NCBI GenBank assembly: GCA_013298775.1
Contig: JAAFIV010000020.1
Span: forward strand, 25,322-89,321
Source: Ignavibacteria bacterium
GTDB lineage: Bacteria > Bacteroidota > Ignavibacteria > Kapaibacteriales > UBA4661
Length of the DNA: 64,000 nt
Reading direction: 5' to 3'
Shown: positions 9,657-50,347 of the stretch, one piece after another
How the letters are laid out: every line of letters starts with the position of its first letter
How positions within the stretch are numbered: the stretch's first letter is position 1
Translations under genes and position numbers: made by a program
Notes under the pieces: model-generated
Databases searched by the model: none
What the model was told of the DNA's origin: nothing
What the model saw: only the letters and a program-made list of their open reading frames with translations

Positions 9657-9732
9657 GTGGCACAGACATTCTTGTCTGTGAGTGTTGGCGGGGGCTTCAG
9701 CTGGACAACACAGACAAGAATGTCTGTGCCAC
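9657..9732. repeat. Family A nested-palindrome element, copy A1 (76 bp)
   Basis: GTGGCACAGACATTCTTGTCTGTG-28 nt-CACAGACAAGAATGTCTGTGCCAC. Confidence 0.9.
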
Positions 9733-10705: not shown

Positions 10706-10847
10706 CTCACCTTACGCATAAGCCCCTCACCCAACCCTCTCCCAGAGGGAGAGGACTTCAGAGCTAGTCTCCACTAACCCTCGCCCTCTGGGAGAGGGTC
10801 TCGCGCAGCGAGGGGTGAGGGCGGCGCGAGGGTGTGCGTAAGGTGAG
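10706..10847. repeat. Nested inverted repeat (CTCACCTTACGCA...TGCGTAAGGTGAG)
   Basis: 13-nt perfect outer arms; inner CCCTCACCC/GGGTGAGGG and CCCTCTCCCAGAGGGAGAGG blocks. Confidence 0.8.
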
Positions 10848-10875: not shown

Positions 10876-10951
10876 GTGGCACAGACATTCTTGTCTGTGT
10901 TTGTCGCCTGAAACCCTCACCAACACTCACAGACAAGAATGTCTGTGCCAC
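10876..10951. repeat. Family A nested-palindrome element, copy A2 (76 bp, inverted core)
   Basis: Identical 24-nt arms to A1; 28-nt core aligns to A1 as its reverse complement. Confidence 0.9.
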
Positions 10952-11991: not shown

Positions 11992-12060
11992 GAACAGACA
12001 AAAGTGTCTGTTCTACCGAAGCCAGTATTGATAGGTAGCACAGATACTCTTGTCTGCGCC
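11992..12060. repeat. Family B palindromic element, copy B1
   Basis: cagacaaaagtgtctgttctaccgaagccagtattgataggtagcacagatactcttgtctgcgcc. Confidence 0.75.
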
Positions 12061-50065: not shown

Positions 50066-50197
50066 TAGTCTGTCAAATGTATTTGAAGAGGCTTGAGACA
50101 AGAGTGTCTGTGCTACCGAAGCCAGTATTGTGCGGTAGCGCGTAACACTCTTGTCTCAAGCCACAAGACGCTAAACATTTGTTTGACGGACTACTAG
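50062..50197. repeat. Family B element, copy B4, with outer inverted repeats
   Basis: Outer CTAGTAGTCTGTCAAA.../...TTTGACGGACTACTAG; inner gagacaagagtgtctgtgctaccgaagccagtattgtgcggtagcgcgtaacactcttgtctcaagccacaagacgct. Confidence 0.85.
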
Positions 50198-50271: not shown

Positions 50272-50347
50272 GTGGCACAGACATTCTTGTCTGTGAGTGG
50301 TCGTGCGGGATTCAGGTAGAAAACACAGACAAGAATGTCTGTGCCAC
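50272..50347. repeat. Family A nested-palindrome element, copy A3 (76 bp)
   Basis: Identical 24-nt arms, diverged 28-nt core. Confidence 0.9.

Follow-up and report, generated by a model that had tools for sequence, protein, structure and literature searches.

A 76-bp nested palindrome of an Ignavibacteria genome as a likely REPIN, and RAYT transposase domains in frame inside housekeeping genes

What is the 76-bp nested palindrome found three times in a 64,000-nucleotide stretch of an Ignavibacteria bacterium genome (the window), and what could have spread it? The copies are located at 9657..9732 (plus strand; arm 9657-9680, core 9681-9708, inverted arm 9709-9732), upstream of a yicC-like gene, at 10876..10951 (minus strand; arms 10876-10899 and 10928-10951), with the core inverted relative to copy 1, and at 50272..50347 (plus strand; arms 50272-50295 and 50324-50347). 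All three are intergenic, and each consists of exactly a 24-nt arm, a 28-nt core and a 24-nt inverted arm, with identical arms, as stated in the first-pass annotation made from the sequence alone. Its claim of a hairpin within a hairpin also held. In the predicted fold the arm has an unpaired GTGG foot (4 nt), followed by the 8-bp stem CACAGACA-TTCT-TGTCTGTG with a TTCT loop, and it folds by itself; the whole unit folds into a long hairpin (-27 to -30 kcal/mol for the elements as single-stranded DNA, z about -10). The 12-nt arm centre was detected 17 times in the window at up to 2 mismatches against 5.4 expected, and none of 100 shuffles reached this count. We regard the arm as a REP of the GTRG-tagged type (GTGG foot plus 8-bp hairpin) and the inverted pair as a REPIN, with a rough probability of 0.82 for the REPIN reading as a whole.

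The window also carries related and other repeats, for which no strand was assigned. Two diverged family-A arms with a GTAG foot (5 and 4 mismatches) stand tail to tail at 11993..12058 and are decayed singlets. The diverged inverted pair at 50090..50162, with the hybrid arm GGCTTGAGACAAGAGTGTCTGTGCTAC, belongs to a related REP subfamily and adjoins copy 3. Another REP-like inverted repeat, CTCTCCCAGAGGGAGAGG, is located at 10734..10799.

The first-pass annotation described a three-copy element, and this part failed: the arms form a family, here called family A, of about 600 members. In the own genome (5.19 Mb, 95 contigs) 610 arms were detected at up to 3 mismatches, 318 on one strand and 292 on the other, and the reversed pattern gave 0; exact arms alone form 77 inverted pairs, mostly of 76 bp. 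The population statistics rest on 864 kb of this genome, taken as stretches and including the window, with 131 arms at up to 6 mismatches. Neighbouring arms within 120 bp form 40 outward-footed inverted pairs, 13 pairs of the opposite kind and 1 direct pair. The core is exactly 28 nt long in 30 of the 40 inverted pairs, which makes this the preferred spacing. Paired arms have on average 0.74 mismatches versus 3.5 for unpaired arms (both ascertained at up to 6 mismatches), and only 1 of the 40 inverted pairs lies inside an ORF of at least 200 aa, versus 78% of random positions. The repeat population, its pairing, its fixed spacing and its extragenic placement are thus directly shown. Higher conservation of paired than of singlet arms and the extragenic pattern were reported for REPINs by Bertels and Rainey (PMC3116915), and the 76-bp element is likely a REPIN family not known before.

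The cores had been described as aligning only partly, and this is amended here: once oriented they align, with the consensus AGTGTTGGTGCGGGATTCAGGCGAAAAA over 30 copies and a mean conservation of 75%, versus 97% for the arms. Because the copies had been found by their arms, we also selected copies by core instead, and the core still showed more differences (19%) than the arms did (8%). The suggestion of a REP/MITE-type element with selection or conversion acting on the arms was the right lead and is supported. Random spacing of the arms, or only three copies without relatives in sister genomes, would have refuted it; neither holds, given the fixed spacing and the 99-583 arms in each of four sister species.

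In these four species of the same genus the arm counts are 583, 258, 200 and 99, and in three others 2, 0 and 0. The wider sample of the order gave 0 arms, except for two weak matches in one genome of the same family. The arms are shared and the cores are species-specific: 28 nt in the own genome and in species G005, 26 nt in G001 and G006 with a sequence different from the own-genome core, and 30-31 nt in G007, where the arms mostly have a TTTT loop. Constant arms with changing cores would be expected if the arms are what the transposase reads. We also searched for a clean empty site. The element is absent from the G005 site of copy 1, with flanks too diverged for the junction to be resolved, and for copy 3 no continuous orthologous site was obtained.

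About half of the pairs have further flanks in common, CTTCA.TA to the left and TGAAGCCTGATT to the right. Where both ends can be recognised, these are an outer inverted repeat, CTTTGTACACGACAAAA, and the whole forms a composite palindrome; 11 such outer pairs were found, mostly of 150-152 bp. The outer repeats are missing from all three window copies, which consist of the 76-bp unit only. It is possible that the moving unit is larger in this half of the pairs, and two options remain undistinguished: REPINs may have landed in an older element, or the 151-bp composite may spread as a unit. Composites of this kind, with ends CTTTGTACACGACAAAA and family-A arms inside, are present outside the window on contigs C1, C3 and others of the own genome (for instance, C1:187747-187897 and C3:49270-49420), and one arm is sometimes replaced by the hybrid GTGGCTTGAGACTTTCTGTCTGTG.

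No encoded transposase had been seen at first reading, which is true of the window. The transposases associated with REPs are RAYTs, of the Y1 (HUH) type. Of the two Y1/RAYT genes in the own genome, one has an internal stop. Both were considered as drivers of family A and rejected, each being flanked by REPs of another family. Three profile searches for a hidden or split RAYT, two of them at lenient E-values, returned the same two genes and one 40-residue scrap (E 0.03). The intact RAYT (locus L032, G000:C8, 1000-2000) has REPs of its own (GTGAGGCTCTCAC...) in a dense array around it.

Only sister species were found to have a RAYT with family-A arms on either side, and there it lies inside recG. 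In G005, G006 and G007 the RAYT shares one open frame with recG. It is placed between the helicase motifs II (DEQHRFGV) and III (SATPIPRT), and the family-A arms that flank it are translated as VAQTFLSV and QTRMSVP. The arms are of the GTAG variant in G007, with a TTCT loop, versus the commonest arm of that genome with a GTGG foot and a TTTT loop; the arm variant beside the RAYT thus matches the genome-wide arms in G005 and not clearly in G007. G005 and G006 have one recG copy each, and in G007 the contig stops inside the insert and so truncates the gene. At the insertion site G001-G004 have a short empty loop. These in-frame recG insertions with family-A arms are established by the data.

The three RAYTs group together in the tree (support 82), and their NCBIfam REP_Tyr_transpos scores are 79.7 bits for G005, 80.3 for G006 and 96.4 for G007, with a cut-off of 80. 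Between species the RAYT domain has a dN of about 0.4 and a dS of at least 2.6 or saturated, a pattern consistent with purifying selection. The embedded RAYT is present in 3 of the 5 arm-rich and in 0 of the 3 arm-poor genomes of the genus, a weak association over eight genomes. We infer that it is likely the cognate transposase and mover of family A; no movement was seen and there are no activity data. A RAYT of this clade was not detected by profile search in the own genome, nor in G001 despite its 200 arms. The driver of family A in the own genome is therefore missing, lost or unknown, and is inferred from the sister species. In the recG gene of the own genome the RAYT is absent; an in-frame palindromic repeat of the CTCTCCCAGAGGGAGAGG type occupies that site.

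In the explanation that we propose, the 76-bp element would be a non-autonomous mobile REPIN, in which a spacer separates two inverted REP hairpins with GTGG feet. The RAYT would recognise the GTGG foot and the hairpin in single-stranded DNA, so that the arms would stay constant because they are what it recognises, and the core would drift. In the sister species the arm-RAYT-arm cassette sits in recG and would hence be made as an extra RecG domain. One RAYT branch may travel as REP-bracketed, translatable cassettes, which would keep the host reading frame open and settle in loops of single-copy housekeeping genes. We consider the REPIN explanation with the RecG-embedded RAYT as the probable driver to be likely, at the same 0.82; movement, translation and activity are not shown.

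Three other explanations were weighed. The 151-bp palindrome with terminal CTTTGTACACGACAAAA could be the real element, a MITE moved by a DDE cut-and-paste transposase, with the 76-bp unit as its inner part. The shared flanks of about half of the pairs and the 11 outer pairs of mostly 150-152 bp speak for it. However, the outer repeats are missing from the other half and from all three window copies, no partner transposase was found, and the REP layout is complete in the 24-nt arm by itself, the part that brackets a RAYT in sister species, so we regard this MITE as unlikely. Less likely still is a host-selected RNA or terminator, with hairpins kept for ending transcripts or shielding mRNA 3' ends and any mobility long past. 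The strong hairpin and the location almost only between genes would fit, but any tolerated insertion would be expected to lie between genes, and Rfam gave 0 matches in the window. This role alone also leaves unexplained the fixed spacing with a drifting core, the species-specific cores, the decay of singlets and the transposase in recG that has these arms on both sides.

A host protein-binding or recombination site for chromosome organisation, for which the high copy number and the exact arms could be cited, is very unlikely: both strands are used equally (318 and 292), several arms are decayed singlets, and the arms are absent or nearly so in 3 of the 8 genomes of the genus. The first-pass annotation had listed a recombination or protein-binding site and a structured RNA among its options; neither is needed, although the element could still have a side role in RNA.

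To return to the REPIN with its RecG-embedded RAYT, the embedding is not restricted to this genus. We scanned 85,462 species genomes with the three recG RAYT domains as queries and kept the best 80 loci, counting a RAYT as embedded if its open frame runs at least 130 codons past the domain. By this criterion 37 of the 80 are embedded, which is not a frequency, since the queries came from embedded copies and only the best matches were kept. Many of the 80 loci are metagenome-assembled, yet the pattern recurs in independent assemblies. According to NCBIfam and Pfam, usually matching on both sides of the RAYT, the hosts are alaS (9), recG (6), thrS (3), purH (3), metH (2) and rdgB (2), together with ileS, gcvP, rarA-like and some methylase or defence-like genes. 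The embedding of RAYTs in host genes across phyla is a direct observation.

Inverted repeats bracket the RAYT in 35 of the 36 embedded loci tested (score above the best of 20 shuffles); nearly all are GTGG-, GTAG- or GGGG-footed hairpins, translated with the host. The same hairpin is present in 18-65 copies in several host genomes, with 0 for the reversed control, and it is rare or absent in other genomes with embedded RAYTs, as a different REP there would predict. The median distance to the nearest Met upstream is 64 residues in embedded versus 12 in free RAYTs (GTG and TTG starts were not excluded), and most embedded RAYTs therefore seem to depend on the host start. In the HUH domain both His are present in all 84 rows and the catalytic Tyr in 99%. 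The interrupted alaS is full length and the sole alaS in six genomes. An AlphaFold model of one AlaRS-RAYT, based on a shallow alignment (9 sequences, pLDDT 66.6), has a fairly confident HUH domain between low-confidence linkers. Its structural matches are AlaRS entries and 4er8, a TnpA-REP in complex with a REP hairpin. A working host protein together with a working transposase domain is an inference, in the absence of activity data.

In the tree the purH insertions and the thrS insertions each form one supported group. The hosts alaS, recG, thrS and metH are interleaved in the Verrucomicrobiota branch, and the cassette therefore seems to have changed its host gene there more than once. The tree is a quick one with many weak forks and at least 18 changes between free and embedded; that the cassettes jump from gene to gene is an inference, no movement having been seen.

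The closest known system is the REPINs of Pseudomonas fluorescens SBW25 (PMC3116915), likewise inverted REP doublets with a spacer, extragenic, in hundreds of copies, with doublets more alike than singlets and a predicted nested hairpin. The differences are the sequence, the bacteria, the lack of a cognate RAYT found in the own genome and the location of half of the family-A copies within the 151-bp composite. The GTAG/GTGG-tagged REPs and REPtrons (PMC3733652, PMC6006769) share the GTRG foot with a hairpin, and the inverted REPs flanking a RAYT. REPs in frame inside ORFs, including replication and repair genes, and inside tnpA-REP have been published (De Nocera et al. 2013, PMC3733652; Quentin et al. 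2018, PMC6006769). The REPtron papers treat RAYTs as separate genes, whereas the cassettes described here, REP-RAYT-REP as a whole, share the reading frame of housekeeping genes; we found no report of this in the open-access literature searched. The usual RAYT is a free-standing gene with its own start, a feature that is not strictly defining and that the embedded RAYTs fail. The 2018 survey removed unexpectedly long RAYT proteins as fusions or annotation errors (PMC6006769), which would have hidden embedded ones; annotation and protein-length surveys have probably missed many RAYTs.

Rickettsia palindromic elements (RPE; cited in PMC3733652) resemble these cassettes as palindromic repeats in frame in protein genes and translated, but to our knowledge they carry no transposase, while the insert described here carries a complete HUH transposase domain. 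Inteins are in-frame inserts in conserved single-copy genes with a DNA-acting enzyme domain, and the RAYT cassettes are alike in this. Unlike inteins, the cassettes have no splicing domain that family scans could detect: the scans returned only the host and RAYT domains and no self-splicing (Hint) domain. The insert most likely stays in the host protein, although there are no protein data. A bolder reading, to which we give slightly less than even odds, sees in the REP-bracketed RAYT cassettes a class of mobile elements that code for protein and resemble inteins but do not splice. They would insert in frame into loops of single-copy housekeeping proteins, of which they would become a translated domain. 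They would also be HUH-active and able to move the REPIN populations of the genome, and would be protected from loss because damage to the cassette can harm an essential gene.

RAYTs have been portrayed as domesticated transposases, single-copy and inherited vertically (PMC8049555), with no settled reason for their persistence. For one branch the location itself offers a direct answer that can be tested: a RAYT in the only copy of an essential enzyme, such as AlaRS in six genomes, is not easily lost. AlaRS, RecG, PurH and similar enzymes in several phyla thus carry a predicted endonuclease domain. Not all hosts are of this kind: the RAYTs at loci L122, L126, L147 and L123 are embedded in DUF1156, BREX-like methylase and SNF2/DrmD-like genes, which are defence-like and not essential. 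A further Y1 domain, in G001 (locus L073, G001:C239), lies in the frame of an Eco57I-like methylase with another REP family, translated as PILTREHAPL, and one stop breaks this frame.
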